64,000 nucleotides of DNA, taken from contig JAYKKR010000003.1 in the NCBI GenBank assembly GCA_036971615.1, positions 1,116,001 to 1,180,000 of the forward strand, written 5' to 3'. Source of the DNA: Amyloporia xantha (taxonomy: Eukaryota; Basidiomycota; Agaricomycetes; Polyporales; Adustoporiaceae). Positions 19,341-64,000 of the stretch are shown here, piece by piece (positions within the stretch are counted from its first letter, which is position 1; every line of letters begins with the position of its first letter). The notes beneath the pieces were generated by a model. The model worked only from the letters and a program-made list of their open reading frames with translations, made no database searches and had not been told where the DNA came from. The translations under genes and the position numbers were made by a program.

Positions 19341-20403
19341 ATGAGCGTGGCAGATCTTCCCGTGGAACTATTAGACGTTGTTGCGTCTCTACTTCCCGTG
19401 GGCGATATGAACGCCCTGATGCGTACCTGCCAACGCGTCTATGGCGTTATCGCTCCTTTGATGTACAAGCGGGTAGAGTTGACAAATTCGAACGCTACGC
19501 GCCGTGTGATGCTTCTCTTGGCGCCCTTCCGGTCCCAATCGCATACTGAAGAACGACGTTCCTACATCCCATTCATCCACCATTTCTCCTATATATCTGT
19601 CGACCCCGATGAGGACTATCGGCTTGCAAGTTTGATAATCAAAATTCTACATCACGCTGTGGCCTTGACGAGCCTGCAGCTCAGCACTCACTGAATCTTA
19701 TGGGGCGCTCGCTCTCGCATTCTCCAGAACACTGTTACGGCGTCGCCAAGTATCCCCATGCACAACGCCTGATCTCTGTATTGCCACTCTTCCCGCTCTG
19801 AAAGACATACACATATCTGAATTCGCCCTCCTGCGACATATCGTGGATTTTCGGCCAATCAGGTCGGTAGAATACCTCGTTATGCACAAGACGACGGTTG
19901 CCCTCAACCGTACATTGGAATTATTGGGACAACGGCGATTGTCACATCATCTGGTTGCGTTGTCTATACGTGTCGGTGAGCAAGTGTCCATAACCGACGC
20001 TGTGAATATGGTCGCGCTATACACACCGCGGCTTACGCACCTATCCGTCCTATATTCGGGACAAGATGTTGTACTTGACACTGTGGTATGCAATGTGCCT
20101 CTCATTCTTTGTACTGCACTTTATTTACAGGAATTATCATTAGCTCGCATTGAACCGCATGGTCGAACACGATCATTGGCTTCCCGATTACGGAGCTTCT
20201 TTTTATTCCATGACAGCGTGCCCGGTATCAGTCATGATACTTTGCATACATTTGAGGCAGTGGAGATGATCAGCGCGTCGAGAGAGCGCATGAGGAGGGT
20301 TGTAATATTCGGCCGCGGGTTCCAGAGAGTAGACGGAGAGTCACCTTGGATAGAAGTTGATAAACTACAGGTCATTCAGAGCGAATCGCAACTTAGAATA
20401 TGA
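19341..20403 (+). CDS. F-box protein
   Basis: Starts MSVADLPVELLDVVASLL followed by MNALMRTCQRVYGVIAPLMY, a typical basidiomycete F-box (LPxELL...I...L...D...L..T.R......P.LY.+). F-box proteins usually dock substrates to SCF ubiquitin ligases through Skp1. The rest is LRR-like: PALKDIHISEFALLRHIVD, LTHLSVLYSGQD, LQELSLARIEPHG. The ATG at 19341 opens the F-box directly. The frame changes once between about 19690 and 19770, so the gene is either interrupted or carries a sequence error; downstream coding to TGA 20401-20403 is continuous. Function of the individual protein is unknown. Confidence 0.75.
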
Positions 20404-41702: not shown

Positions 41703-43062
41703 ATGTCTTTTACGTGAGCATTATATACACTTGCTCATTAGACACATCCATACCAACTTGCTCTCACATACAGTCACACTACTCTCACTACTTTTGTCGC
41801 TGTACAACCAGGGCTCCGTCTTCCTGCACCTTTCAACATATGGGAGACGACTTTGCTAAATGCAAAGAACTTGGTCCTGCTGCATATGGATCAGTTGCTG
41901 CGAGGCCGACAGGTGCAAGCCACATGTGAGGAGTGGCGAGAGTCTGTCTGTGCTGTGAGTGTTATATACACCCATTTTTGTGCGATGTTACACTTACAGA
42001 ACATCCAATGTTTAGTGGCCAATATTGGACATTTCTGCTGAATTCCATGATGTTCATATTCTGCAGGTTGCGCATATGACACTAGCATTTTGTTTGCACT
42101 TCTATGTCCATTCCTCCAATCCGACCCAGCGTGTACTCGTCCCAAAATCATTGGCCATCCCTCTTCTTCATGTGTCAGCAACTCTGGGAATGCCACCAAT
42201 TCTAACATATGCCGACACAGTGTTGTGGAACTGGCAACGTGTTAATTCCCTCCTACCTGTGTGCATTGAAAATGTGCACATCCTCCATACATTTTCACAG
42301 ACACCCAGTGAAGAGGCATTTTATCGTTTGTCTCTTGCTGTCGAGCTTCAAGGCGATTTCATCTTATCCATTATCGACACAATCATGCTCTCTAGGCGAA
42401 GCCATTCTGTACAGGCTATCGAGTCTGTTGCGCATGGGCTGGCCCATCTTGCTCAATCCGTGGAACAAATGATTCACCTAATGAAACAATTTCCATTACA
42501 CATCGATGTCTGGGAATTCTGTATTCTAATTCGGCCGTGGTGGTGTGGATCACCGATTCACACCGATCCACTTGCATGGGTTTTTGAAGGGGTTCCAGAC
42601 ATGACTAGTTTGTTGCTGGGCGGAGCAACAGCTGGTCAAAGTCCCGTGATTCACGCATTGGATGCCTTTCTTGATGTTGATCATGAACTTCACGATCCCG
42701 ATCGCACTCCATCGCCATCACTACGAACCTTTGGTGCGGATCACTCATTCATGTCACGCATGCGTCAGTACATGCCGGAATCCCACCGTCAGCATATCTC
42801 ACAAATCAAGCCCATTCGCAGCTATGTCACTTCACACCCAGCTTTCTTACTCAACTTATACAACACTGCTGTGCGGGCGCTGCTTGCCTTCAGAACTGAG
42901 CACTATAGTGTGGTCAATCGATTCTTGCCCACTAGTGGTTCTGGAGGACTCAACAACAATGGTGTTACTCAAGGGACGGCTGGCAGTGATGTGCGGTCCT
43001 TGTTAGCTGCAGGTTGTGGTGCTACACGACGAACAGAGATCCGTGATAGATATGATATTTAA
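41703..43062 (+). CDS. Indoleamine 2,3-dioxygenase
   Basis: IDO is a haem enzyme that opens the indole ring of tryptophan to N-formylkynurenine, the first step of the kynurenine/NAD route. Exon coding from ~41740 gives GLRLPAPFNIWETTLLNAKN and CEEWRESVCA, then a 61-nt intron (41955-42015, GTGAGT...TTTAG) and WPILDISAEF. The remaining single exon carries RVLVPKSLAIPLLHVSATLG, PPILTYADTVLWNW, LHTFSQTPSEEAFY, IRPWW, GGATAGQSPVIHALD and FMSRMRQYMPESHR. The last two match the two IDO signatures; the His of YMPxxHR is the proximal haem ligand by family knowledge. The start is uncertain: ATG 41703 would need a 28-nt intron and a one-base change in a T run. The stop is TAA 43060-43062. The gene sits alone in a CpG-poor block. 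Confidence 0.92.
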
Positions 43063-46162: not shown

Positions 46163-46907
46163 ATGTCTACCACTGCCCATTGTGCGCGTGTTCTACCCGC
46201 AATTACACTTCCTTCCGTCGATCAACCTGGTACCAAACGAGTGCTGTCCTTTCCGTTCGTCCCAGCCGTCGGCAGAACGACACGAGCAGTGAGGAGATTG
46301 CCATCCGCTACTCGGTGGTTATATTCATGTTCTTTATATCTAGGACGTTGACCGGGCAGCCGCGAGCGAGCCGTTTTTGACTCTTCCTCTAGCTCTGGTC
46401 CCAAATTCATATCCTTCCTGGAAGCCGCCGGTGATGCATTACGGATGGGAGGCGAATGTGAAGTTCCTTCTTGATCTTGCCGAGGAAATGGGTTGCCTCT
46501 CCCGCAAGGAAAGCACAACCGAGGATGCAATCAAACAATACTACAAAAATCGTTTTCCGCAGAGCGACTCGAAGGCGCACGATGACGCTGACAAGAAGGA
46601 CGAAGACGAGCTGGAGTACGACGAGCTTCCTAAATGGGCAGGTATAAGCACATATGACTCCATGACGAATGTAGTACGGGCCATTGCTCGTCAATTAGGC
46701 ATCCACTTTCCTCCTCGGAAGCTACGTGTCATTCTTGTTCTCAAGGAGGGGCAAGATACGATAATGTCGCTTTATACTAACTATGATCTCCGAGCGAAGA
46801 TCCCACCCGAGGAGGACATCAGGAGACTTGCGGACCGGCTGTGTATATCAGAGCAGCCGAAGTGGTACCTGGATGACATGCAATGGACGTGGACCCGGCG
46901 CGATTAG
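46163..46907 (+). CDS. Tandem-array protein, subfamily A, copy 1 (apparently intact)
   Basis: Family not recognised. Exon 1 (46163-46288) has the conserved PSVDQPGTKR and FPFVP blocks; the intron is 46289-46343 (GTGAGG...TCTAG); exon 2 (46344-46907) has SEPFLTLPLALVPNS, PPVMHYGWEANVKFLLDLAE, a charged Asp/Lys-rich middle, and a C-terminal core SLYTNYDLRAKIPPEEDIRR, LADRLCISEQPKWYLDD and QWTWTRRD. The predicted protein is 229 residues, with no signal peptide or membrane segment. It is the first of seven same-strand copies; the start-to-start distance to copy 2 is 1255 bp and the 3' flank is also shared. Probably a soluble intracellular protein; function unknown. Confidence 0.8.
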
Positions 46908-47417
46908 TAATGGTGAATTGTGCGGCCATCGCTTCATTTCTTGTTTTCGGAATGTATCCTGATTTACTCGTGGACGCACTGCATTTTAGACAAGCTTACC
47001 CATTGCTTCTGTTATATTCGTCGGTATGATTTTTGCTATCAGTCGCTGCATTTCATCTCCATGCGTCGTCATTGTATCAGTATACCTAGTCTATAATAGT
47101 GGATATCACTGTTTTCGTTTCTCGAGTGGACTTGCCAATCACCCAAAATACTAGTAGTGGCGCGATTAGTAATTTCGAGATGTCCTCCAGAAGGAGACTT
47201 GGACACTCAAGGCCCTCAGGGTCTACAGCTACAAGTTGCTTCAGAATCAGTATGATGATGACTTCGTTATAGACATCGACAGTGCGCGAACTGAGTGAGC
47301 ACTGCAGTCCCGCGGACTCTGATTCGCGGTTGACGCGGTCACGTGAGCTCCACAAGTTTTGTATTTGAACGTTGAATCGTTCATCGCTTCCGCTTGTTGG
47401 CTATCATTATCTACGCA
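46908..47417. other. Spacer of the A tandem unit
   Basis: The sequence after the stop (GTATCCTGAT, then CATTTTAGAC) recurs after copies 2 and 3, so the tandem unit includes gene plus spacer. Confidence 0.6.
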
Positions 47418-48152
47418 ATGTCTACCGCTGCTCATTGTGCGTGTGCTTTATCCGCTACTACCCTTTCTTCCGTCGATCAACCTGGTACCAAACGAGAGCT
47501 CTCCTTTCCATTCAAACCAATTATCCGCAAAACGACACTGGCGGTGGGGAGATTGTCAACCGCACCCGGTGGCTGTATTGATGTTCTTTGCATCCAGGAC
47601 ATTGACCGGGCCGCCGCGAGCGAGCCGTTTTTGACTCTTCCTTTAGTTCTCGTTCCAAATCCCTATGCCTCGTGGAAGCCGCCGGTAATGCATTACGGCT
47701 GGGAGGCGAACGTGAAGTTCCTCCTTGATCTTGCCGAGGAAATGGGCTGCCTTATCCGCAAGGAAAGTGGCACAGTGGATTCTCTTAGGGAAGAAATAAA
47801 GAAGCACTATCCTCCGAACAACGATAAGGACGTCGACAATGAGGAGGAGATGTAGTACGACGACCTTCCTAAGTGGGCGGGTGTACACACATTTGCCTCT
47901 ATGGTGAATGTCGTACAGGTCGTTGCTCGACAATTAGGCATTTGTTTTTCTCCTAGAAAGCTACGCCTCGTTGGTGCTCTCAAGGATGGGCAAGATAACA
48001 TAATATCGCTCTACACAAACTACGATCTCCGAACGAAGATCCCACCCGAGGAAGACATCAGAAGACTCGCCGATCGGCTGTGTATATCAGAGCAGCCAAA
48101 GTGGTATCTGGATGATACGGAGTGGACGTGGACCCCGCGCCGTTACTACTAG
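47418..48152 (+). pseudogene. Tandem-array protein, subfamily A, copy 2 (nonsense mutation)
   Basis: Same two-exon layout as copy 1: exon 1 47418-47543 (SSVDQPGTKRELSFPF), intron 47544-47597 (GTGGGG...TCCAG; length divisible by three, so the intron reads through in frame), exon 2 47598-48152. TAG at 47853-47855 replaces the GAG of copy 1 (EYDEL) in the middle of exon 2. Downstream the frame stays open and conserved (SLYTNYDLRTKIPPEEDIRR, SEQPKWYLDDTEWTW), so the stop looks recent. A truncated product would lack the C-terminal core. The change is a substitution, not an indel. Confidence 0.8.
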
Positions 48153-48709
48153 TGAAGTGTGTAGTCATGGGCTCACTTCTTTTGTTCGTGGAACGTATCC
48201 TGATATTGCTCGTGGATGCATTGCATTTTAGACGGTTTTATCCGTCGCTTCCGCTTATCCCACTGCTATGATATTTACTCCCAGTCACTGACTTTTTTCT
48301 CTGTGTGTCGTCATTGTATTGGTATACCTAGTTTATAATGGATATCCCTGTTCATCCCTTGCGTGGACTTTATCGATACAAAATACTGGTAATGACGCGA
48401 TCAGTACTTTCGAGATGCCTTCCACGGGGAGAAACTCAAGGCCGCGCGGGAATACTCCTGCAAGTTGCCTCAGAATCAGTATGATGGTGACCTTGCTATA
48501 GACATCAACAGGACGCGAACTGAAGCGGCCAGAATTGAGCAGGCCACACACGTCGTCTGATTGGCCTTTGAATCCGAGCAGCGTGACGCGGTCACGTGCG
48601 CTCCACAAGTTCTGCACGCTGAACCTTCCATCGTTCAACATTTACCGTAACATTCAGCGCTCAGCACTCAGCTTTCATTTGGAACTTGTTGACAAATATT
48701 ACACGCACA
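48153..48709. other. Spacer of the A tandem unit
   Basis: Repeats the spacer after copy 1, including CGCGATCAGTACTTTCGAGA-like sequence near 48400 that also occurs near 47160 in variant form. Confidence 0.6.
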
Positions 48710-49532
48710 ATGTCCACTAGTGTCCGTCGTGAGCGTGTCCTACCTGCAATCACGTTTCCTTCCGTCGATCAACCTGGCACCAAACGAGAGTTATCCTTTC
48801 CGTTCCTACCAAGTCTCGGCAGAATGACACGAGCGGTGAAAAAATTGTCACCTGCCTCTCGCTAGCTGTATTGATGTTCTATGTATCCAGGACCTTTTTT
48901 GGGCGGCCAAGAGCGAGCCGTTTCCGACTCTGCCTCTAGCTCTCGTCCCAAATCGATACTCCTCCTTGAGGCCTCCGCTGATGCATTACGGCTGGGAAGT
49001 GAACGTCGAATTCCTTCTTGATCTCGCCGATAAAATGGGCTGCCTCGTTTACGACGAAACCGAGGGCAAAGATGCCGATGACAAGTATTTTCAAAAATGT
49101 TTCTCGACCCGCGGCACCGATCTCAATAGCGACACCGATTCCACCAGCGGCGATGACGATGGCAATGAAAAGGAACACGACGATGTTGACAAGAAGAAGC
49201 ATGACAACACCGACAAGACACATGACGATGCCGGCAATAAGGCGCACGACGATGTTCCCAAGTCGACGGGTATACACATATATGAGTCCATCGGGGATGT
49301 GGTACAGGTCATTACTCATCAATTAGGCATCCACTTCCCTCGAAAGATACGCATCGTTTTTGCTCTCAAGCATGGGCGAGAAGCGATAATATCGCTTTAC
49401 ACCAACTACGATATTCGAGGCAAGGTCCTACCCGAGGAAGACATTAGGAGACTTGCCGACCGGCTATGTATATCAGAGAAGCCGAAGTGATACCTCGACG
49501 ATGAGCAGTGGACGTGGACCCGGCGCAGCTAA
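48710..49532 (+). pseudogene. Tandem-array protein, subfamily A, copy 3 (late nonsense mutation)
   Basis: Exon 1 48710-48835, intron 48836-48890 (GTGAAA...TCCAG), exon 2 48891-49532. The middle is expanded and very acidic, with repeated HDD and NTDK-like steps (HDDVDKKKHDNTDKTHDDAG). TGA at 49488-49490 replaces the TGG codon of EPKWYLDD, and the frame then runs on to TAA 49530-49532 with QWTWTRRS intact. The loss would remove only the last 14 residues, including the conserved Trp-rich end, so the 241-residue product might persist. I call it a pseudogene because the end is otherwise invariant. Confidence 0.7.
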
Positions 49533-50121
49533 TTTGTGGTGTAGCGCGCAGCCATCAGTCCATTTCTTTTGTTCGTGGAATGTATCCTAATTCTGCTCGT
49601 GGACACATTGCATTTTAGACAACCTGACACGATGTTGCTTCTGTTTATTTTGTTGCTGTGATTTTTATTCTCTCATTCACTGCTTTTCATCTCTATGCAT
49701 CGTCATTGTATCGAATTCCTAGTCTCCAATGGATATCCTTATTTTCGTTGCTCAAGTGGCCTTGTCGGAGTGATGTATCACTGATTCTGCCAATTGGTCT
49801 ACAATACTGGTGAGCGCGTGATAGTACACGTACTCTCTGGTTGCGTCCAGAATGCTTTCCACATGGAGGGACTCAAAACCTCCGCGCGTTGCTTCTTGTA
49901 CCACTATGTTGGGCTACTAGAGTAGCTCAGCTTCCGTCGGAACGTCCGTGAAGCTTCAGTTCCCGATGCTTCATTACCGCCAGGAGGTAGACGTGAGATT
50001 TCTCGAAAATTGCGTTCTCCTTAGCATAGTTAGCGGCACCGGGTCTTTCTTAGTGAATTTACCAATAATTAGCATAGCGATGACTTCGTTACAGACAATA
50101 ACAGAGTGACAATGACGCTAG
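49533..50121. pseudogene. Spacer with relic of an eighth array copy (about 49940-50025)
   Basis: The first part repeats the A-unit spacer. Near 49966-50005 the plus strand reads MLHYRQEVDVRFLENC, which aligns with MHYGWEVNVEFLLDLA at the start of exon 2 of copy 3. No other part of the gene follows, so this looks like a truncated relic at the junction where the A repeat gives way to the B repeat. Confidence 0.5.
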
Positions 50122-50800
50122 ATGACTATGAAGATCAGAAGGAGTACGATGAATGAATCTACGTATCCTCTTCATTCCACGCCATGCTCATGGAGACGAG
50201 AAAATGACTTTATCCCGCGTACAAAGATGATGTGCCGGTCGCCGTCGCTTGAACAATTCTGGAGATACAATCTAGGGTGCGCTGTCTCAAAATCTCTGAA
50301 GCAGTAGAAGAAATCAAAACGGGGGGAATCACGCTTACACTCTGCACATCATGTTCTGTAGGAATGAAGATCAAGGGTTAGGCCGTTCCAGATCACGGAA
50401 ACAAGGACAAAAAATGAACAAATCCTTGTTCTTCCTTGAGGTTAGCGCACTTTGGAGATGGATCTACATCTTCGCCTGATTCAAGTTCTAAGTTCACACA
50501 AATTTAGCGCACAGACAAATAGTTCGTGCAAATTACGTTCGCGCTTATAAGTCATGAATATGCAATTTTAGGAGGTGAGCCCTGATGGAGGTTATATGGT
50601 CGTCTAGGAATACAGTAAATCGCGAATTTATCCTGTTTACCTGTGACTGAGGAAACGTAGCATGAAATGTCTCGGAGAATGGGCACGGAATGATTCGGGA
50701 GCGAGTCTCCTTTGAATACGTATACTGCAACACGCTGCACATTGGACATCACATCGTACATGCGTTGATGTAGCAGAACTTGATTGCATCCACGTTCTGG
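50122..50800 (-). pseudogene. Degenerate copy of the PD-(D/E)XK-like gene
   Basis: The minus strand encodes pieces matching the gene at 53303-54616: FTVFLDDHITSIRAHLLKLH corresponds to its FTVCLDDHMSFINILLKELY, in scrambled frames. The plus-strand sequence near 50275-50480 is a diverged duplicate of 54015-54190 (for example CTCTGAAGCAGT...GAAGAA). Most of the nuclease-like exon is missing. It lies divergently upstream of array copy 4, as the intact gene lies upstream of copy 5. Confidence 0.65.
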
Positions 50801-51342
50801 GGCACAGAGTATCGATTATGAGTCAAATATGCATGCCACAACCACGAAAGAAAGATTGTTGCATTACGGCTCACGAGTTAGAGATTGGATGAGAGTTTCG
50901 ATTGGCACGGTCCGCCAGACGCATGATTTGTAAAGCGAGTATAGTATTAGATGCCATTGTCGACGAATCCGCAGTAGAGCCATGAGTCAGACGTCCCGAT
51001 CCGAAGAGGATGGGAAGGGAATTGACCTAATTCAGGCAACATGTGTCGTATTAAGAACAGACGCTACATACCACGACTCATTTTGACTCACCTTGACCAC
51101 ACATCAGTCATTCTAGTAGAAAAGGCGCTTTCGTCATGGCCTGGCCAGCCTAAGGCTCTGATAGGGGCGAAAAGGATGAGAGAAAGATCGAACCACAATG
51201 ACTTCCAAAACAGGTCTACTGTAACATGATTGTGGCGGCATTTCACGCGGTGGCGTCGAATATCATTCCCTCAGGCTCTCCCCTTGTCGCGATACTGTTG
51301 CACATCTTCCTATAATTGTCAGATATTTCCCATAAAACGCCT
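50801..51342. repeat. Duplicated divergent upstream region
   Basis: A block at about 50980-51230 (GAGTCAGAC, GATGGGAAGGGAATTGACCT, TCAGTCATTCTAGTAGAAAA) recurs at about 54745-54905 and 55115-55360. It lies between the starts of the divergent gene pair and so probably includes their promoters. Confidence 0.65.
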
Positions 51343-52038
51343 ATGATTCTATTACCATCTGTTGATCCTCCTGAGACAGACTCGACCGCCGACCTTCCGT
51401 TTATTCCGCTTCGAGAGAATCGCACTTCTGAGGTGAGAATTCAATTTACTATGTACACGTAGTACTGTGCAGGAGGCTGTAACAAGAGTACTACCTCTCC
51501 TTCCATATAGGACCTTAGACGTATTCTTCATTCAAAGCCTTTCGCCCGTCTTCCTCGCTCTCTTATACCGGATCCCGCCGTGGTACTACAGCCTCCCCTG
51601 TTGCATTACGGCTGGTATGTGCCTCTCGAACTGCTTCTCCGCCATGCGGACGAACGCGATCTCAACTGCGTGACAGTCAGTCAGCGTGAGAGTATGGGCA
51701 TTAGTGAGGAGGATTGGGTCGAAGAGTATGATGAAGATGACAAAGCTCAGGATGAATTCGTACCCAGAATCGACGAGCCACAGACCGCCGAGAATGCTCT
51801 CAGAGACATTGCGAGAGAGGAGCAGTGTCATTTCTGCAAGGACATTCTGCAAATCACTGTTCCTTTGCAAAAACCCGTGAAGCATATCGTTTCACTCTAT
51901 ACTAATTATGACCTCAAACACGCTCCCTCCGAAAACGACATCAAGAAACTGCAGAAACGGCTTGGTATCGAAGGAGAGCCGAGATGGTTTTTCAATCACA
52001 CACAGTGGTCGTGGAACTGGGCGGGGCGTTACTGGTAG
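51343..52038 (+). CDS. Tandem-array protein, subfamily B, copy 4
   Basis: Exon 1 51343-51432 (LPSVDPPETDSTADLPFIPL), intron 51433-51510 (GTGAGA...TATAG), exon 2 51511-52038. Predicted 205 residues. Exon 2: SKPFARLPRSLIPDP, PPLLHYGWYVPLELLLRHAD, LNCVTVSQRESMGISEEDWV, an acidic stretch, then HIVSLYTNYDLKHAPSENDI, KKLQKRLGIEGEPRWFFNHT and QWSWNWAGRYW. The blocks align with subfamily A, but the C-terminal core is distinct (KKLQKRLGIEGEPRW against RRLADRLxISExPKW). No known domain; uncharacterised. The start is the first ATG and is shared with copy 5. Confidence 0.8.
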
Positions 52039-53302
52039 TGCTGTTTGTTCCCTCCTTTGTATGGGATGGTATGTGGTCCTGCTCTTTGGTCGCGGCATTT
52101 ACAAAGATCTACGTGCAGGATCCTTCCCGCGTTTTGCGGCCCCTTGTTCACGATACCCTTTCTTGCTTTATCGGTGCTCTCGTTATGTCTAACTCTGCCC
52201 ATTGCTGTGTGACAATGCTCTGAATATTGCGGCTCGTTTACGACTGTATTCGAATACGTCCTTTCGGGCTCCTCATTTGAGGACCAGTAATAATCAGCGA
52301 TTGGAGCCATTATTTTTGTGGCCGCGGGACCGGTCGGAGAGTGCACGATATTATGCCAGACCGGCGTACTTGTCACTGTGAAGTTCGGTCGGTATTGTGG
52401 ACCCTGGGGAAGTTGTCTGCAGGCATCAACACAGACGAAATGCAGACGCAGCACAGACGCAGCACAGACACTATGCAAACGCAGCGGAAGAGAGGCATCG
52501 TAAACCTTCCTCAGGTAAGATGGCGAAAAGTGGCCGCAGATTTTGTTGTACACAAAAACATCGAAGTGAGAGCCGACAGGATACATATCCCCTGTATTTC
52601 AGCCTTTGCGCCGGACGGGCGACAAGGCTACGGTCCATGTTAAAGAATGACGTACCTCATGACTGCCAGTGTTGCCCGTCAAGGTGACACTAACCACAGA
52701 CCCAGGCACTAGCAGCCGAAACGCCATCAACATAGTGAGGAAATTACTTTGCAAGGATATATGAGGAGAAATGATAAACCAGAAATGTTAGGATGGCCAG
52801 GCTAGAGCGGCGAGCGAGAGAGAGGAGTCCTACAGCCTGCAGCTGGCAGTGTCTTTGGACGTCTCAGGCGGCCAGTCTCCTGTGAGCAGAGTAGATACTT
52901 CCTTCAATCTTTCGCCGGCGAAGGATATCCGTATCCGAGTCTGACCCAGAGGCATCCTTAGGTGTGCATTGGCGTCCGCGAGCGGCAATAAATTTCCTAT
53001 ACCCCCTGACAATATTAATATCAGTACTCGTTCAGCGTCGTGAAGCCTTTTCGGTGGGCGAACGTAGAAGGATCGATTTATACTAAACTTGAACGACGAC
53101 AGTGACAACCGGAACGAATATAGTAAACACTATGCAGGGCATCCTACGCAGGCAAAGGCATGAATTCCCGTCGTCTCTTCTAGAATCTACCGCTAGGGCA
53201 CTCTTCCCAATGAATGCCAAATTATTCACTCCTATCCCCCTCTTCTTCGTCGTCGTTATCACAGTCGTCGTCCTTCTTCCTCTCGTTGTCTCTCCCCTAT
53301 GC
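52039..53302. other. Intergenic, partly shared with the spacers after copies 5 and 6
   Basis: The segment at about 52180-52215 (CTCGTTATGTCTAA, TGTGTGACAATGCTCTGA) recurs near 56350 and 57615, so it belongs to the B unit. A small direct repeat (GACGCAGCACA) lies near 52443-52463. A minus-strand frame at 52830-53108 (INRSFYVRPPKRLHDAERVL) looks protein-like but is unidentified. Confidence 0.5.
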
Positions 53303-54616
53303 TTATTGGGACTCCTCTGACTCCACATCCGACTTCTCATCCGACTCCACCTCCGACTTCTCTGACCCCGCCTCCTCCTCCTCCGATTGCACCTCCGACT
53401 TCTCTGACCCCACCTGCTCCTCCTCCGATTGCACCTCCGACTCCCCTGATCCATCTGTCGGCACGCTGCTCCCTGCGTCGGCACTATTGCTAGAGATGCT
53501 GTTCGATGGATGATCAGCATCAGCGCCTTGAGAAAATGCTATCGATTGATCATGAGTCGAATTGCGGGCTGTCGGGAAACCTTTGGATTTCTTGTAAGCC
53601 GTCCAAGATGTTTTGAACCGCTGACTATAGTCGGTCTGTCTTTCGTTGAGAAGATGATAATAGGATGGGTTTCGCGGAGTTCCCGAGCTCATCGCAATCT
53701 CCTCGAACGAAATCTCAAAATGTTCGTCATATTTGGGAGTCTTGCTACGAATGAATTTGTATGTCTTGAAGAATAGCCCGACAAAACACATGACGTCGAG
53801 TTGGTTCTCCTCTGGATTATCGGCGAACCCAAACTGCACCTGTTCGAGGATTTGCCGTTGGGCGTCCCTGAACGCCCCTTCCATGAATGCGTCCTGTGCT
53901 TCCTTCGGGGTTACGCCATGCGTATAAAGCGCCGGAAACGGCTTTATCTCGCATATGAACATGATGCGCCGTTCACCCTCGGATGAAGTGATTCTAGCGA
54001 TGAAATCCGGAGTGCGCAGTCCCACGGTCTCTGAAGCAGTGGAAGAACTTGAAATGGGGGCATCACACCCTGCGCTCTGCAACTTCTGTTCTGCAAGAAT
54101 AGAGACCAAAGGTTACGGTTAGGCAATTCCACAAAACGGAAGCGAGAACAGAGAACTAACGAACCCCTGTTCTTGCTTGAACTTAGCGTCGCTTGGGGGT
54201 GGATCGATATGTTCGCCTGATCCAAGGTCGTGCGGACGCTATTGAAATTGAACGCATAGTCAAATAATTCGTACAGATTACTTTCCCGCCTATAAATGTA
54301 TAATTCCTTGAGGAGGATATTGATAAAGGACATGTGGTCGTCGAGGCATACGGTGAATTGCGTTGGCCAGTTTGTCTGCGCCTGGGGAGACATGGCACAA
54401 GCTGTCGCCGAGAATGAGTGCTGAATGACCAGAGCGGGACTCCTTTTGATATTTATACCGCGCAACATATTGTACATCACGCCACGCAAGCGCTGATACA
54501 GCGGAACTTGATCTAAGTCGCGTTTTGGGGCACAAGTATCGACTAGGAATTCAGTGTATACTGCCAAAATTACAGAGCAATAACTGCTTGAATTGGGCTC
54601 AGTGCTTCGTTTCAAG
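53303..54616 (-). CDS. PD-(D/E)XK-like nuclease-fold protein with acidic C-terminal repeats
   Basis: Exon 1 (about 54616-54161) has LYQRLRGVMYNMLRGINI and FTVCLDDHMSFINILLKELY. A 70-nt intron (54160-54091, GTTAGT...TTGCAG) leads to exon 2: EQKLQSAGCDAPISSSS, LRTPDFIARITS, then 15 residues later MFICEIKPFP. PD...(D/E)xK is the core of the restriction-endonuclease-like fold, and this spacing fits it; many agaricomycete proteins of unknown role share the PDF...EIKP layout. After KTYKFIRSKTPKYDEHFEIS and TDYSQRFKTSWTAYKKSKGF the tail is an acidic repeat of SEVQSEEE units to TAA 53303-53305. The exon junction is out of phase by one base at a GGGG run. The true start is not certain. It is transcribed divergently from array copy 5. 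Nuclease activity is an inference. Confidence 0.6.
53310..53455. repeat. Coding minisatellite, about 42-45 bp unit
   Basis: On the plus strand the unit GACTTCTCTGACCCC followed by CCTCCTCCTCCGATTGCACC recurs about two and a half times; on the minus strand it encodes the repeated SEVQSEEE(x)GSEK segment of the nuclease-like gene. Confidence 0.8.
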
Positions 54617-55494
54617 ATGTTTCATCGACAAGCGTCGGAGAAAAAAAATAAGAATTTTCGGCGGCACGGTCCACCGGACGCATTAGTTCCCTTCTGTGAA
54701 AAGTAGCTGCAGTACTAGATGCCATTAGCAACGAATCTGCAGTGAGAAATGAGTCAGACTGTCCAGATTCGAAGAGCATGGGAAGGGAATTGGCCTATTT
54801 TATGCGACATGAGTCGTATTGAAAACAGAAGCGGCACCACGAGTCACCTCGGCCAAGGTGAGCCGTGAATCAGTCATTCTAGTAGGAAACGCACCTACTT
54901 GATCGTAATCACGTTTAAAGGCACAGAATATCAGCTGGGGATTGAAAATGTGCCATAAATACAAAAGAATAACCCTTGATCTGGACTCACTAGTCGGTGA
55001 TTCCTTTGGGACACCCCCCAATCAAGAAACTTCGAAGATGAAATTTCCGATTGTTTCCCTTTCTCGCACAGTGAGCGCAGTATTAGATGCCATTCGCAAC
55101 GAAACTGCAGTAACAACATGAGTCAAACTGTCCTGATTTGAAGAGTATGAGAAGAGAGTTGACCTAATTCAAGGGATATGAGTCGTGTTGAAAACGGAGA
55201 CCACACATCACGAGTTACCTTGGCTCTTCCTAGCCATACATCGGTCATTCTAGTAGAAAACGTGCTTTCGACGAGGCCTGACTGATCTGAGAATCCGATA
55301 GGGGCAGATAGGATGGAAGACAGTGACTTCTCTAAATAAAATAAATCTTAACACTGACTCTGTGGCGACGTTTCACGTGATATTGGTTGAGGTCGTATAT
55401 CACTCGTCGTTCTAAGGCTTTCTAAGGTCGTTGCAGTTCCCTAACTTGCTGCAGTACTCCTGTGCACCTTCGTCCATCTTCCCATTACACGCCT
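54617..55494. repeat. Divergent intergenic region with internal tandem duplication
   Basis: Two diverged copies of the upstream block seen at 50980-51230 lie here, about 54745-54905 and 55115-55360 (shared: GATTTGAAGAG-like start, GGGAAGGGAATTG, CATTCTAGTAG). The region separates the minus-strand nuclease-like gene from plus-strand copy 5 and probably holds both promoters. Confidence 0.65.
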
Positions 55495-56186
55495 ATGATT
55501 GTATTACCATCTGTCGATCCTCCTGGCACTGAATCGACAGCCGATATTCCGCTTATTCCGATTCGAGAGGAGCGCACCGATGAGGTAAATATCATATTTA
55601 CTGCGTCACAGTAGTATCATGCAGGACGCTAGAATGCGATTGTTCACCTCCCACACAGGACATACAACGGGTCCTCGACTCGAAGCCTTTTGCCCGTCTT
55701 CCCCGTTCTTTTATTCCGAATCCCGCTGTAGCACTGCAACCTCCCGTGTTGCACTACGGCTGGGATGCACCTGAAGCTCTACTTCTCAAGCATGCGAAAG
55801 AACGCGGTCTCAACTGCATGATAGTCAGTCAGCGTGAGATCTTGGGTTATAGTAAGGAGGAATGGCTTGAAGAATATGGCGAAGACGAAGAGGAAGGCGA
55901 TGGATTCATACCTTACGTCGACGTGCCTAATACCGCCGAGAGGGCTCTCACAGACATTGCTCGGCAAGAACAGTGTCGTTTCTACAAAGACACACTGCAG
56001 TTCACTATACCTTTACGGTTACCTGCGGCTTACATCGTTTCACTTTATACTAACTATGACCTCGAACACGCCCCCTCCGAAGAAGATATCAAGAAACTGC
56101 AGAAACGGCTTGGTATCGAAGGAGAGCCGAGGTGGTATTTCAACCACACGCAGTGGACATGGAACTGGACGGGGCGTTACTGGTAG
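55495..56186 (+). CDS. Tandem-array protein, subfamily B, copy 5
   Basis: Exon 1 55495-55584 (LPSVDPPGTESTADIPLIPI), intron 55585-55658 (GTAAAT...ACACAG), exon 2 55659-56186; 205 residues predicted. Conserved: SKPFARLPRSFIPNP, PPVLHYGWDAPEALLLKHAK, LNCMIVSQREILGYSKEEWL, IVSLYTNYDLEHAPSEEDIK, KLQKRLGIEGEPRWYFNHTQ, WTWNWTGRYW. Start and splice sites match copy 4 exactly in phase. No stop or frameshift is seen. Function unknown. Confidence 0.8.
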
Positions 56187-56736
56187 TGTTCTTCGTTCCC
56201 TTGTTTGCGTGGTATGTGGTCACTGCTCTTTGATCATGCCGCGGCATTTACAAAGACCTACGTGCAGGATCCTCCCCGTGTTTCGTGACATCTTGTTCTT
56301 GTTTTGCCCTGCTCGGAGTACTAGAATCCTTTACGCTTTACCTCTGCTCTCGTTATGTCTAATCGTGCCCGTTGCTGTGTAACAATGCTTTTAGTGTTGC
56401 AGTTCATGCCCGACCACATTAGACTGCGTCCTTTCGGGATGTGTGTTGTGAGGGCCAGTGATGAATGAGCAGTGATATGAGCCATTCTACTTTTCGCCGC
56501 GGGACCAGTCGCAGAGTGCACGGTATGCCAAATTGGCGTACTTACCGGCCACTGTGGAACCCGGCCAGCACTGTAGACCTGTTCCACAAAACGAAGTTTA
56601 ATTAGATCGCCACAAGCCAATCGTATACAGTGCGAGTCGGAACTTGCGATGATTCGCTTTTGGGGATGCTCACCTTTGGCAGCCCCAAGGTCTCCCGTGA
56701 TCCCTTAATTGTCGCGATACTGTTGTATACTTTCAT
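56187..56736. other. Spacer of the B unit
   Basis: Contains the shared downstream block (near 56340-56410), also found after copies 4 and 6. No recognised gene. Confidence 0.55.
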
Positions 56737-57446
56737 ATGTCCTCCCATTTCACGTCTACGATTCTATTACCATCTGTTGATCCTCCTGGAACGGATTCAA
56801 CCGCCGACCTTCCGTTCATACCGCTGCGAGAGGAGCGCACTGATGAGGTGAGAACTCAATTTCCAACGAAGTACTGTGCAAGAGATTGTAACAAGAGTAC
56901 TCCCCTTCTTCCATATAGGACACTACACATGCTCTTCACTCAGAGCCTTTCGCCCGTCTTCCCCGGTCTCTTATACCGGACCCCGCTGCGTCATTACAAC
57001 CTCCCGTGTTGCATTACGGCTGGTATGCACCGCTCGAGCTGCTTCTCCGCCATGCGGACGAACGCGGTCTCAATTGCATGACAGTCAGTCAGCGTGAGAG
57101 TATGGGTATTAGTGAGGAGGATTGGGTCGAAGAATATGATGAAGATGACGAAGCCGAGGACGAATTCGTGCCTGACATCAACGTGGCGAGGACTGCCAAT
57201 AATGCTATCAGAGACATTGCTAGAGAGGAGCAGTGTCATTTCTACAACGGTATTCTGCAGATCACTATCCCTTTGCAGAAACCCGTGAAGCATATCGTTT
57301 CACTCTATACTAACTACGACCTCAGACACGCTCCATCTGAAGAAGACATCAAGAAACTGCAGAAACGGCTTGGTATCGAAGGGGAGCCGAGATGGTTTTT
57401 CAACCACACTCAGTGGACGTGGAACTGGGCGGGGCGTTACTGGTAA
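56737..57446 (+). CDS. Tandem-array protein, subfamily B, copy 6 (shifted start)
   Basis: Exon 1 56737-56847, intron 56848-56918 (GTGAGA...TATAG), exon 2 56919-57446; 212 residues. The ATG used by copies 4 and 5 is ACG here (at 56758-56760, before ILLPSVDPPG), but an in-frame ATG 21 bp upstream (SSHFTST leader) can replace it. The rest is intact and close to copy 4: SEPFARLPRSLIPDP, LNCMTVSQRESMGISEEDWV, KHIVSLYTNYDLRHAPSEED, KKLQKRLGIEGEPRWFFNHT, QWTWNWAGRYW. Function unknown. Confidence 0.75.
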
Positions 57447-58054
57447 TGCTCTTCGTTTTCTTGTTTGTCTGGTAAGCAGCCACTGCTCTTTGATTATGTT
57501 GCTGCATTTACAAATACTACCGCGCACAGTGTCATTCCCGCATTTCGCGAAACGCTGCCAGTTCATGTTTCGCGTTTCCCGGAGTACTAGAACCCCTTAT
57601 TGTTTTATCGCTCTCGTTATGTCTGACTATACCCGTTGCTGTGTAACAACAGTGCTCTGAGTGTCGCGGTTCATGCACGACTATAGTAGACCGCGTCCTT
57701 TCAGGATCCGTATTCGAGGACCAGTGACCATAAGCAGTGATATGAGCCATTCTATACATGGCTGTGGGACTACTTGTAGGGTGCTCGGCATGACAAACCA
57801 GTTTACTTGTCACCACGAAATCGCTATATACAGTGGGCTTTTGGTCCGGGGATGCTCAACACCTGCTCCCAGAATAGCGGCTCATTGAACTGGCGACCAC
57901 AATGGCTCACGTGCCGCATGTTTACTTCACACTCGTATGTTCAACTCGGCAATTGCAACGTCAACCTTCACGCTCTTGAACCCTAAGAACGCTTCAACTT
58001 AATATTGAGCGTCGAACCACGGTGACCAATAGTGTATTTTTTGCTGCGAAGCCT
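57447..58054. other. Spacer between B copy 6 and A copy 7
   Basis: The first part repeats the B-unit spacer (near 57600-57670); the remainder is unique in the window. No gene recognised. Confidence 0.5.
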
Positions 58055-58780
58055 ATGATTGCTATATCTCCGACAGTTCTTGGTTCTGTCGACCCTCCTG
58101 GTGTTAACCAGGACTTGTTTTTTCCCTTCAACCTGCTCACTCGAACACGGGCGGTGCGGTGCTTTACAACCGCTCTTATGTGACCGAGCTGATATTTCCT
58201 TACTCAGGCCACGAGGGGTGCATTCGAGAATGAATCTTTCCAGACTCTACCTCGAATACTCATTCCAAATCCCTATAACACGTTAAAGCCGCCGGTGATG
58301 CATTACGGCTGGGAAGCGAACTTCGATTCACTTCTTTCTCTCGCGGAGGAACTCAATTGTATTGTCTCAGAAGACGATGATATGAAGAGATCTTCTAGCG
58401 ACAGTGAAGATTCGTTTGACGCTGAGTTAAAGAAAACATACGAGGAAGAGAGAGCCAAAGAAGAGGCCGATTTTGCTGCAACGGGCATAAACCCTAGGTG
58501 GATCGGCGTGCGCATATTTTCCTCCATGTGGGACGTAGTTGAACTCGTCGCCGAGCAATTGGGCCTACACTTTCCTTGCGGGATGTTACGCATCGTCGGC
58601 GCATTCAAGAATGGGCAGGACACGATCATCTCTCTTTACACCAACTACGATCTTCGCGCCAAGATTCCACCCGAGGAAGACATTAGGAGACTTGCCGATC
58701 GGCTGGGCATATCAGAGGAGCCGAAATGGTACTTGGACGATATGCAGTTTACGTGGAATACATACGGTCGTCAATGGTGA
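58055..58780 (+). CDS. Tandem-array protein, subfamily A, copy 7 (apparently intact)
   Basis: Exon 1 58055-58153 (LGSVDPPGVNQD, FFPFN), intron 58154-58207 (GTGCGG...CTCAG), exon 2 58208-58780; 223 residues. Exon 2 has NESFQTLPRILIPNP, PPVMHYGWEANFDSLLSLAE, an acidic and Lys-rich middle (DAELKKTYEEERAKEE), DTIISLYTNYDLRAKIPPEE, DIRRLADRLGISEEPKWYLD and MQFTWNTYGRQW. The C-terminal core is that of subfamily A, while exon 1 (VDPPG) and the GRQW end resemble subfamily B, so it may be close to the ancestral form or recombinant. Function unknown. Confidence 0.8.
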
Positions 58781-59130: not shown

Positions 59131-59776
59131 CATCGAGTCCTAGGGTGGACATGGGAATGGCCAGTCAACCGTTATGCGAGTGTCTCTAACTTGGGCGTAC
59201 TTGTCGCGACTTAGAGTCGAGCGACAGGGGAAGAACAAACCTAAAAGGCCGAGGGCGTTCGACTGGGTCTTACCGAAGCGATGACGAGCTATGCTCAAGT
59301 CTAAGGCTAGGGACAAGTTAAATAGAGCGTAAGTAGAAGTAAGTAAGTACAAGCAGGGCTGGGCTTACCTAGGGACAAGAGGTCGAAACTGAAGTCCCCA
59401 GGCAGAGGCGTGCTACCTTATATACTGCAAGAGTTCAGGGCAGGCTATCTACATGGTCCGTGCGCAGGTGGTCTGTGCGCAGCCTGAGTAAGCAGGCTAT
59501 GAGTCATAAGTGATGTCGTGAGCGGAGCCCGGCGGGGCCCGAGGTCGGCCGGCACCGTGCTTAAGTAAACGTCTGTAAAGGGAAGGCGGGACAGAGTCCG
59601 TGGGAAAGGGACATGTGACCTGTAATGGTCGACGCGTCTAAGTCCATGAACAGGGAGCTCGCTGTATTCGTGTATCGTAGAATGGCCGTTCGGATAAGAG
59701 GGGAAAATAACGATGAGTAAAAGGAGAAAATCGTCCGTATATAGAAAGGAAGAAACGCTCGATGTCAACTCGTGAC
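59131..59776 (-). repeat. 3' long terminal repeat of the gypsy element
   Basis: Its 5' end (minus strand) is TGTCACGAG at 59776, directly after the polypurine tract. A TATA box (minus strand TATATAAGG) lies at 59418-59427. The inner end is uncertain because the other LTR is not in the window. Confidence 0.65.
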
Positions 59777-61233
59777 AGTACCCCCCTCCCAACGCCGCAT
59801 GACCTCATGCGCGCTTCCTTTCCCCATCTCCCAACCAGAACGGCAACGTGCTTCGGTCATTGCTTCAGGAAGTGGGCGGAACTGCAAGCCGGCAAATATA
59901 GCGGCGTTGAGTCGACGAGGCGCACTAGGGTGTTTACGATGGAAGGTCTCGATGAGTTCTTTCGCGTTTGCAACGTTACGCGCCGGTTCCCAAGACGTAT
60001 GGGACTCATCGTATCCTTTCCATTTGACGAGGTACTGAAGCTGGCGGCGGAATATTCGGGAATCTTTGATTCGCTCAACTTCGTACTCGTCTTCGCCTTC
60101 GACCTCAATTGGTGGCGGTTCGTCAGGTTCCCGACCCGGGATTTCACTACGCGTATGCTTGCTGAGCAAGGAGACATGGAAGACTGGATGAACTGGCACC
60201 GATTTTGGTAACTTCAGTTCATAGTCTAAATCACCGATCTTCCGTGTGACGGGGAAGGGACCAAGGCGTTTGGGACTTAGCTTTCTGCTCGGCTGTTTCA
60301 GCTTTAGATTACGAGCATCCAGCCACACCTTGTCACCAGGTTTGAACACCGGTGCCTCCTGTACGTGCCTATCGTAGTACGTCTTCATGCGTTCAGCAGA
60401 CAGCTCAAGCGCAGCGCGCGTGTCATCCCGTATTTCCTGCAGCAACTTCAACCTATCTTCCGCAGCGGGTACCTTGGACATAGGGTTCAAGCGAATTTGG
60501 AGATCGGGGTTATAGGCTTGGTTCAGGAAGAAAGGGGAGTAACCGGTTGCAGAGTGAACTCGATTGTTCAGCGCAAACTCTGCCAAAGGCAACTGCTTTG
60601 CCCAATCATCCTGTCTATGGCTGACATAAGCCCTAAGATACTGCTCGATCTCCTGATTCCACCGTTCCGTCTGCCCGTCTGTCTGAGGGTGAAATGCAGT
60701 CGACATGGCTGGCTCGATATTCATCCCTTTGTAGATCGCATGCAGATACTTTGACGCGAATTGGGGACCTCGGTCTGATATGACCTTGGCTGGGGCCCCA
60801 TGATGTGAAAAGACATCGCGTATGTAAAGTTCAGCAGCACCTTCGGCAGTCAGCGTCTCATGACATGCCGAGAAGTGCACCATCTTGGTGAAGCGATCTG
60901 CCGTGACCAGGATTGAATCGAACCCATCAGACTTTGGAAGACCCACGATCATATCGGTGGTGATAACCTGCCAAGGGCGCTCCGGAATCTCATTCGGTTT
61001 GAGCGGCCCTTGTGGTTTAGCGGGGAATGTCTTGGTACGGTTGCACGTGTCGCAGGTGCTTACGTACTCATTGACGAACTTGGACATTCCTGGCCACCAA
61101 TAGTTTCGCGACACCAACTCTAGGGTTTTGGCTCGACCAGGGTGACCGGCTGCCGGTGCGTCGTGGTGGATTTTGACAATATCCCGCCGAAGCTCTGCAT
61201 TCTTTGGGACGTAAACGCATCCTCGAAATAGCA
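59765..61233 (-). CDS. Gypsy pol, integrase and chromodomain part
   Basis: About 489 codons after the insert. Zinc-binding HHCC: HHDAPAAGHPGRAKTLELVS, WWPGMSKFVNEYVSTCDTCN. Catalytic core with Asp (VITTDMIVGLP), Asp (VISDRGPQF) and Glu (TDGQTERWNQEIEQYL). Then YDRHVQEAPVFKPGDKVWLD, LGPFPVTRKIGDLDYEL (GPF/Y-like module), HPVFHVSLL, and a chromodomain YEVERIKDSRIFRRQLQYLV, KWKGYDESHTSWEPARNV. Integrase inserts the cDNA; chromodomains guide it toward particular chromatin. The coding sequence ends with GGTVTS and the stop overlaps the LTR start. The front end is cut by the TIR insertion. Confidence 0.9.
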
Positions 61234-61289
61234 CATCAGGAAAAACCCCTTTGGCCCTAGGTTCACCTAGGAGTGACCTAGGCTGCCCT

Positions 61290-61330
61290 AGGGCACTCAG
61301 AGCACTCAGAGTACTCAGAGCACTCAGAGC
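61290..61330. repeat. Subterminal direct repeats CACTCAGAG/TACTCAGAG
   Basis: Four consecutive ACTCAGAG units near the left end of the TIR element; similar CCTGAGA-type units lie near the right end. Possible transposase-binding arrays. Confidence 0.7.
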
Positions 61331-62227
61331 AACCCAGGTTGCTCTCAGAGAAAAGTTATTTAGGTTTTGGAACCCAGGTTGACCTGAGTCAGACCTGAGA
61401 TCAGTCCTAGGTTGACTCAGGATATACCATATTTCAGTCTCAATATCCTTGGAATCACTTCATTTCACACTTATGAAAGACAGCATATAAATATATTCAG
61501 ATATAATACAATACAGATGTGATACAGATAAATGTAACATATATTTGTAAAATACTAGAGGGAGAAATATGCGAGGCACTTACCATTCATTACTATCAAT
61601 ACAATATAATAACTTTCAGTAAAGAGCTTCAGAAGCAAGACAACAGACTTACTCACATTACAATCTCAGATGAAATTGAAGCATAGGTAGATGGTGAAAA
61701 GAATTGTGAAGTTTAAGAACAACTGAGAGATTGAAGTAAGAATGGAAGATCAATATGAGCTTAGACATGTCGACTCACCAATTGCTACAACTTCTTAGAG
61801 GGAGTGAGTGCACACTGAGTACAAGTAATACCTGTCATGCACAGTGATACGTCAGCATCACTGGCAGCTTTGAAAAGATGAGTAGACTTACTTTGTATTG
61901 TCACTGTATGGTTATAGCCAGTACTTATAAGTGAAACTATAGTTGGAGATGAAGAAAGAAGACATACACTTATCGCCTTTCAGGTCAACAGCGTCCAACC
62001 AGTCCTGTGACGTGTTACTCCTCATGCCAGCCCAGAGATAACTTAGATAGTATAAGTAAAACAACAGACCAGATGAGCACCCAGAAGATCAGAGAAAGAG
62101 ATGAATAGACCAGAGGTAGCCAAAGTAGAAGTGACAGCAGGACAGCAAACGCAAGAGTGAAGGACTTAGAAGAGAAATGAGTGCAGTGAATGCTGTGGAA
62201 TGAAGACGTGGCAGATCATGTGAATAT

Positions 62228-62289
62228 CATGTGACCTTCCCAATAAGGAAGCGTGCCATGGCACGCTTCCTTATATGGAAGGTCACATG
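62228..62289. repeat. 62-bp palindrome
   Basis: Left arm starts CATGTGACCTTCC, the centre is CCATGG flanked by GCGTG/CACGC, and the right arm ends GGAAGGTCACATG. Only a couple of mismatches (CA/AT next to the TTCC blocks) break it. It could form a strong hairpin or be the head-to-head ends of another small element. Confidence 0.85.
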
Positions 62290-62881
62290 ACCTTTAACCA
62301 GTGCATCATAACATGCTAATTTCTTACATTTAAAGTCTCTGTTACCTCAATATTGCTCATTCTATCCCTGGATGTGGTCTTTTGTATCAATTAGAATGTA
62401 CAGAATACATATTCCAAGTGCTATACTGTGTCAATACCACCTTATCATTGCTCTTTTTCATAGTAACTATTTGTCCACTTGTATTCTCTATTATGAGAAC
62501 AATTCTACTCTCAGACGTCTTAAGCACAGATTGCTGGTGGAGAAAAATTGTTCTGTCTTCATACTGCTCATATTCTATGATATATTTGTTAGTAATAGTT
62601 TTCACTACTGGTAAAGTGAATGGCTTAGCATTTGATTGAAAAACCACTACATTTGGTGTAAATGGTTGGATACATATATATATACCAAACTGTCTGCAAA
62701 TATTATGACATGGTTCAGAGTACAAAATTACACAAAATCATTGAGTAAGAGATATGTCAAAAAATCTCAAAGCTACCCAAGTTGACCTGGGGTAACCTGA
62801 GATGACCTGAGACAACCTGAGAAATCTCAGGTCTGCCAGAGTGACCCAGGTGAACCTAGAGCAAAAGTGTTTTTCCTGATG

Positions 62882-64000
62882 CAGAAGCCCTTGCTCGGCA
62901 TTCCACTCGGTGAAGTCGCGCTGCAGCCGGGGTGGGCCTAGATTCTGAATCTTTTCCAGGGCGTCCGCCACCTCCCGGTCCTTGTCCGAACATTCTCGAA
63001 TCCGCTTTAGCAGTGATCGATCTGCCACAACTGCTGCATGCCCACGCTGCGTGGAGGAAATGCGGAACTGTTCCGGTTTCAGGACAATCTGATCCACGTT
63101 GTCATCGTCATCTCCAACCTGGAGGTCCGGGCGACGAGACAAGGCGTCAGCCTTTCCATTCGACTTGCCCGACTTGTGAGTGATAGTGAAATCGAAGCGG
63201 GACAGGTACAGAGCCCATCTCGCTTGTCGTCGTGTGAGGTGCTGAGCTGTGCGCCAATACTCGAGGTTCTTATGATCCGAAAGGATCTCGAACGTGTTAG
63301 GACAACCCTCGAGGTAGTGACGCCAGTCTTCCAAAGCTTCGATTATCGCTAGCATCTCCTTGTCGTAGATCTCGTAATTACGTTGGGCGGAATCCATGCC
63401 CCGAGATCGGTAGGCCACCGGATGCCACTTGCCATCCTCCTGCTTTTGCGAAAGTACGCCACCGGTTGCGTACCCAGAGGCATCCACCTCTAGCCGCGTT
63501 TCCCGGTCTTGGTCATACAGTGCTAAGACAGGTGTGGTGCTAAAGCAGCGTTTCAGCTCCTCGAATGCAGACTGCTCTTCCTCACCCCACTGCCAGGGTA
63601 CGTTCCCAGTTAGACGATCAAGGGGTTGCGTGATCTTTGCAAAATCCTTGATGAAGCGACGATAAAAGTTGGCAAACCCTCGGAATTTTTGGATGTCTTT
63701 AACATTCCGAGGGGTGGGCCACTCCATGACTCCGCGGATCTTTGCAGGATCCATCGCCACTTCACCATTCCCTACAATCATGCCTAAGTAGTCTGTTTTA
63801 GGAACATCCCACTCGCACTTCTCCGGTTTCAGAAAGAGATCGTTTTTCTGAAGGCGACGCAATACCTCACGGGTGACTTTCTCATGCTCCAGCTTGTCCA
63901 TAGAGAAGATGAGAATGTCATCGAGATAGACCGTGAGTTTTCCCTCCGCAATGAGATCTCCGAAGATGTCATTCATCATTGCTTGGAAAGTCGCCGGAGA
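62882..64000 (-). CDS. Gypsy pol, reverse transcriptase and RNase H part (partial)
   Basis: Runs in from the window edge with SPATFQAMMNDIFGDL. Reverse transcriptase: catalytic VYLDDILIFS, then LKPEKCEWDVPKTDYLG. Connection: KIRGVMEWPTPRNVKDIQKF, RGFANFYRRFIKDFAKIT. RNase H: LYDQDRETRLEVDASGYATG, PVAYRSRGMDSAQRNYEIYD, KEMLAIIEALEDWRHYLEG, DHKNLEYW, LSRFDFTITHKSGKSNGKAD, ALSRRPD. It ends at EWNAEQGLL where the TIR element begins. The 5' end is not in the window. Confidence 0.92.

Follow-up and report, generated by a model that had tools for sequence, protein, structure and literature searches.

What is an opposite-strand gene doing inside a tandem array of small two-exon genes, and do the two kinds of protein act together? 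We address this question for Amyloporia xantha, in a stretch of 64,000 nucleotides (contig C23, positions 1116001-1180000; hereafter the window) from a searched genome of 46.8 Mb in 60 contigs. The array encodes a protein family that we name HYGW, and the gene on the opposite strand, which we call the partner gene, encodes a putatively nuclease-like protein. New here are a second HYGW cluster (cluster B), a dead HYGW copy on another contig (C1), and the partner gene or a remnant of it beside HYGW at each place. We put at about 0.5 the probability that HYGW and the partner form a functionally linked two-gene module, with linkage of any sort.

HYGW genes and the partner gene, or its traces, at three places

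The initial annotation had described seven same-strand copies of a two-exon gene at 46163-58780, with a single intron position, a fixed order of conserved blocks, and two subfamilies. As an observation, the array is confirmed as a whole. All seven copies are two-exon genes on the + strand; the predicted introns all lie at one position (7/7) and are GT-AG, phase 0, and 54-78 bp long (the gene models are predicted from sequence); the blocks follow the same order in every copy; and a tree separates subfamily A (copies 1, 2, 3, and 7; 100/100) from subfamily B (copies 4, 5, and 6; 100/99). The likeness between copies is beyond chance, since copy-versus-copy tblastn gives expectation (E) values down to 7e-90 and relatives occur in other genera (see below). 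Copy 2 has an in-frame TAG in its acidic middle and copy 3 an in-frame TGA in its C-terminal block, so five of the seven copies are intact. An additional relic proposed near 49.97 kb is plausible but weak, i.e., a 17-residue match whose score was reached by one in 1,000 mononucleotide shuffles; neither tblastn nor a hidden Markov model (HMM) search reported anything at that site. The same stretch also holds the partner gene and a relic of it, neither of which had been mentioned. The features are as follows (exons are given without the stop codon).

46163..46907, + strand: HYGW copy 1, subfamily A, intact; exons 46163-46288, 46344-46904
47418..48155, + strand: HYGW copy 2, subfamily A, not intact: exon 2 has an in-frame TAG; exons 47418-47543, 47598-48152
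48710..49535, + strand: HYGW copy 3, subfamily A, not intact: in-frame TGA close to the C-terminus; exons 48710-48835, 48891-49532
49952..50006, + strand: possible HYGW relic, 17 residues, weak, approximate place; score 47
~50148..50652, - strand: relic of the partner gene; tblastn E 2.5e-4 and 5.3e-4; inside a block 67% identical to 53913-54892
51343..52038, + strand: HYGW copy 4, subfamily B, intact; exons 51343-51432, 51511-52035
53303..54393, - strand: partner gene, nuclease-like by motif, with a paralogue in the second cluster; predicted exons 54393-54165, 54090-53303
54394..55494: 1101-bp intergenic interval of the divergent pair (partner gene and copy 5); internal duplication, 54709-54891 with 55077-55262 (78%)
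55495..56186, + strand: HYGW copy 5, subfamily B, intact, head-to-head with the partner gene; exons 55495-55584, 55659-56183
56737..57446, + strand: HYGW copy 6, subfamily B, intact; exons 56737-56847, 56919-57443
58055..58780, + strand: HYGW copy 7, subfamily A, intact; exons 58055-58153, 58208-58777

Cluster B lies 109 kb away on the same contig (C23:1041371-1053039, minus strand) and comprises six further open HYGW copies and one relic. Its introns occupy the same place as those of the window copies and are 52-64 bp long, five being GT-AG and one GC-AG. Taking both clusters together, 11 of the 13 near-full-length copies are open. The third place, C1:3344569-3344925, holds a degenerate copy that is nearest to subfamily B. 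Two different genome-wide queries found HYGW only at these three places, and an HMM search over 184 kb around both clusters yielded no further convincing copy. Exon 1 of copy b2 in cluster B (C23:1051003-1051738, locus L010) contains a tandem repeat of S-V-(D/G)-L-P-A that the other copies do not have at that length. A coiled-coil-like, two-frame gene (L009 3459-4916 and 8256-8619) adjoins cluster B, and a degenerate copy of it lies inside the cluster.

The partner gene encodes an orphan protein of ~338 residues; its start codon is uncertain, the frame being open upstream to 54621. Searching the genome with either partner paralogue gives two matches, one inside each HYGW cluster. In both clusters, the partner stands head-to-head with a HYGW gene, the gap to copy 5 in the window being 1101 bp and that to b7 in cluster B 336 bp. 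Within the window, the divergent pair has been duplicated as one block, with 50179-51126 matching 53913-54892 (67%) and 50943-52403 matching 55079-56579 (72%) in the same order. On C1, the stretch ahead of the dead HYGW copy has short matches to the 3' end of the partner (30 bp, E 1e-4; 20 bp, E 0.005) and a 65-column match to the intergenic stretch of the pair (E 1e-8), again in the same order; tblastn at E <= 1 found no partner coding match there. Toxin-immunity pairs are judged by whether adjacent genes are inherited together; here, the pair or its traces occur at three of three HYGW places, the third weakly, in one genome. Moreover, in an all-against-all comparison of 1888 open reading frames (ORFs) of at least 50 amino acids over the 184 kb, only HYGW and the partner join the two clusters themselves. 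Other ORF groups that join the cluster surroundings look repeat-like, as classed by inspection, with Ty3-type elements alone being identified by domains. A functional linkage is suggested because the pairing has been kept, the block has been duplicated, and no other genes are shared.

The HYGW family: relatives, fold, and selection

We sought relatives in a set of 5.8 billion proteins. A profile built from five window copies found 14 proteins with E values from 1e-31 to 5e-21 (E <= 0.01, 2466 candidates); hence, there is significant profile similarity to proteins outside this genome, and the window copies are members of a HYGW family. An alignment of 25 rows that included those 14 proteins found 30 relatives (E 3e-74 to 3e-12; E <= 10, 4138 candidates), 16 of them new. 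Organism names are attached to 23 of the 30, all annotated as hypothetical or uncharacterised, and the other seven are unnamed metagenome proteins. The named relatives come from Taiwanofungus camphoratus, Sparassis latifolia, Sparassis crispa, Amylocystis lapponica, Rhodofomes roseus, Fomitopsis serialis, and Daedalea quercina, all in Polyporales genera (the order was checked for six of the seven species, i.e., all but S. latifolia); examples are T. camphoratus AcV7_004798, S. crispa SCP_0114910, A. lapponica B0H21DRAFT_306755, and D. quercina DAEQUDRAFT_730232. These proteins carry the blocks of the window copies (S-x-D-P-P, PP-x-x-H-Y-G-W, S-L-Y-T-N-Y-D-L, and P-x-W-Y/F), but they are only about 25-40% identical to them, with a separate expansion in each genus. 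Across alignments of 25 and 32 rows, the invariant or nearly invariant columns are L-P...P-P...G-W, T-N-Y, P-x-W, and a C-terminal W.

HYGW genes appear to be clustered in other species as well. The close locus tags AcV7_004786, 4798, and 4799 suggest clustering in T. camphoratus, as do the neighbouring tags SCP_0114910 and 0114920 in S. crispa; five S. latifolia proteins are probably on one contig, the contig of each having a size of 222,568. One Amylocystis protein (P0015) contains two HYGW units within a single chain. Two T. camphoratus proteins, P0001 and P0005, are near-identical apart from the C-terminus of each and 19 extra residues inserted at the exon junction. This insert looks like an unspliced intron, and the place of the intron is therefore probably shared. 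In a tree of 41 rows, from which the partial matches P0026, P0029, and P0030 were omitted, copies mostly cluster by genus; some of the deep joins are long-branched and unsure.

The view that HYGW contains no recognised domain was upheld. Pfam gave a best E of 0.053 over 32 alignment members and likewise nothing credible in single-protein runs, NCBIfam and PADLOC gave no match for four HYGW proteins, and PHROGs gave a best E of 0.24 for two. No strong match to a known housekeeping domain, a possibility that the initial annotation had raised, emerged from these profile libraries. PDB sequence searches with HYGW and partner proteins returned 1, 1, and 2 chance-level matches (best E 0.65). The structure model of HYGW is confident (predicted local distance difference test score, pLDDT, 87; predicted template modelling score, pTM, 0.83), and no match to it turned up among solved folds: structural comparison gave a best E of 0.38 in the PDB, a best E of 0.19 in a viral library, and no match in VIA. 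A ferredoxin-like reading of the order of its elements was set aside because template modelling scores were low. Hydropathy indicated no clear N-terminal signal or membrane segment. HYGW is modelled as a small alpha+beta protein that is probably intracellular; isoelectric points (pI) range from 4.25 to 9.62 across the 41 rows. Searches of prokaryote and viral contigs, each made with a single short pattern of low sensitivity, gave 9 and 20 pattern matches, none of them confirmed. An Rfam scan of the window gave 0 matches. In the open-licence part of PubMed Central, none of the best-ranked papers listed dealt with the family, and no paper was found for six of its locus tags, a scope that does not prove the family unpublished.

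Tandem birth and death of copies at one spot had been taken to suggest diversifying selection. The first part of this interpretation stands along with the unrecognised family and its two subfamilies: local birth and death is evident from the genus-specific clades, the two broken copies, and the relics in cluster B and on C1. The second part does not. The ratio of nonsynonymous to synonymous substitution rates (dN/dS; Nei-Gojobori, averaged over the whole gene) is 0.23-0.48 in all 24 within-group pairs, i.e., 6 in subfamily A, 3 in subfamily B, and 15 in cluster B, with the stop codon skipped for pairs involving copies 2 and 3. The copies are therefore under purifying selection on average; since these are whole-gene averages and some pairs approach synonymous saturation (dS up to 1.79), single sites may still be under diversifying selection. 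As for the suggested role in recognition or defence, the putatively nuclease-like neighbour is the sole hint.

The partner protein and the surroundings of the clusters

The two partner paralogues are 27-30% identical. In both, T-P-D-F-I is separated by 17-18 residues from a downstream E-(I/V)-K, an order that we take to resemble the PD-(D/E)XK nuclease motif, the comparison being of only two sequences. By this motif, the partner may be labelled a PD-(D/E)XK-like nuclease; membership of that superfamily has no profile or fold support. The window protein ends in a Ser/Glu-rich repeat tail of ~70 residues (53306-53525, - strand) that the cluster B paralogue does not have. Neither protein is basic (pI 6.1 and 5.1), and an argument that set an acidic inhibitor against a basic nuclease was dropped for that reason. 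We also rejected the idea, which came from one ORF that looked alike by eye, that the partner is a free-standing protein related to the N-terminal region of these fungi's kinases, i.e., of fungal kinases in general. The fungal-kinase family PF17667 has 157 exon-level matches in the genome, on C10, C12, C19, C22, C27, C34, and other contigs, a number of them with internal stops; one ORF (L025) has an N-terminal stretch with R-P-D ... E-x-K. Together with the Polyporales relatives of HYGW, these matches pointed to an agaricomycete of that order as the most likely source. A search of the genome with PF20516 gave no match, and its controls likewise gave none.

Genes recognised elsewhere in the window include the following.

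10583-11458, + strand: barrel domain of the ribonucleotide reductase large subunit, in a single open frame (E 5e-58; covers 196-445 of the 523 profile positions)
37327-38634, - strand: GEN1-type C-terminal domain
42016-43062, + strand: indoleamine 2,3-dioxygenase

Two related, gene-sized ORF pairs lie on opposite strands 8 kb apart (20849-22550, - strand; 30465-32164, + strand), near an F-box-like stretch (19248-19691) that scores below the Pfam cut-off. Just past copy 7 begins a Ty3-type retroelement with integrase and chromodomain, which covers 59765-64000 of the window (- strand) and continues into C23:1180001-1183500. A closely related copy is found ~13 kb from cluster B (C23:1065000-1072000). 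A second repeated stretch (C23:1055400-1058400, 1072200-1075600, and 1184100-1186000) follows the Ty3-type element twice and also occurs beside cluster B.

Linked genes, passenger, or conflict cassette

How could a linked pair of HYGW and partner genes work? A HYGW family known, so far, only from Polyporales would have multiplied by local duplication, and a HYGW gene and the partner would be co-expressed from their shared upstream region. The nuclease-like protein would be bound by HYGW proteins, which would hold it in check or guide it, and the extra HYGW copies would serve variants or states of that protein. Binding and control of a nuclease-like protein is the mechanism we prefer, though we hold it only tentatively and regard it as distinctly less probable than linkage as such. 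In addition to the pairing itself, the low dN/dS in all 24 pairs and the absence of a clear signal or membrane segment were counted in favour of a linked pair. Other results weigh against it. The partner has no match in Pfam, NCBIfam, PADLOC, or PHROGs, nor in PDB sequences; its single-sequence model (pLDDT 42) is too poor for fold comparison; comparisons with fungal-kinase N-terminal parts gave a best E of 0.83 by BLASTP and 0.46 with a two-row HMM; and the isoelectric points of partner and HYGW proteins give no charge match of the acidic-inhibitor type. The partner trace on C1 amounts to 30 + 20 bp of partly simple sequence. All three places could derive from a single ancestral locus, in which case they are not independent observations. 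Finally, there is no separate partner for subfamily A, each cluster has one partner gene per five or six intact HYGW genes, and no partner homologue was found among 1320 candidates (E <= 0.01), which leaves the pairing observed in a single genome.

The last of these points and the possible single ancestor of the loci speak for a rival reading: HYGW would be an ordinary tandem family specific to its lineage, with its own role inside the cell, e.g., as a small binding or adaptor domain, and the nuclease-like gene would be a passenger copied along with it from an ancestral segment. Most HYGW copies have no partner gene, and HYGW was found in other species while the partner was not found among the 1320 candidates. 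However, the pair has persisted although, between the clusters, HYGW proteins and partner proteins alike are now only about 30% identical, and nothing else that is non-repetitive is common to both. We consider co-copying the strongest competitor to functional linkage, at somewhat less than even odds. Far less credible is the possibility that the array has no function and is debris of repeat-driven decay. Two of the seven window copies are broken, relics exist in cluster B and on C1, and Ty3-type elements lie just past the array and near cluster B; but, across the two clusters, most near-full-length copies have open frames and GT-AG introns (GC-AG in one), dN/dS is well below 1 in every pair, and relatives persist in several genera. 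We regard this explanation as extremely improbable.

A narrower form of the linked-pair reading is that the genes make up a cassette of the killer, incompatibility, or anti-element type, with a nuclease-like protein that would do harm and HYGW proteins that would protect against it. By analogy, Spok, the spore killers of Podospora, demonstrate that a restriction-endonuclease-like domain can be paired with a resistance function in a fungus (PMC9972908). In Spok, a single protein carries both functions, the resistance part being a kinase-like domain, whereas there are two genes here and no kinase: the ~338-residue partner has no Pfam kinase match, and nuclease-like and kinase-like parts are not found together in one protein. 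Transfer of toxin domains to fungi has been described for polymorphic toxin-immunity systems (PMC3482391). Like those systems, the locus sets a single effector-like gene beside several genes that may be its partners; unlike them, no known toxin or immunity domain was recognised in HYGW or the partner, and the single-pattern scans of prokaryote and viral contigs confirmed no relative. The HYGW-partner system would at most resemble, in its way of working, other pairings of a nuclease with a protecting function; by the tests made here, it is a member of none of the nuclease and protection systems compared. The gene arrangement, the orphan status of both proteins, and the birth and death of copies would suit a killer cassette, but the nuclease assignment comes from a motif, charges do not match, selection is purifying on average, and PADLOC finds nothing; we consider such a cassette unlikely. 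The same holds for its most specific form, an undescribed conflict cassette of mushrooms in which a harmful nuclease and an array of dedicated protectors with a new fold would occur in Polyporales alone and be copied within genomes with both genes together, which we regard as a long shot.

Fungal genomes have a blind spot in lineage-restricted families that match neither a known domain nor a known fold. HYGW offers a handle on one of them: a confident fold prediction, few conserved residues, a series of paralogues that includes broken copies, and a candidate partner. If the partner is a nuclease controlled by HYGW, the locus would be a lead into conflict or defence systems of mushrooms; if it is not, there is still a new family to describe.

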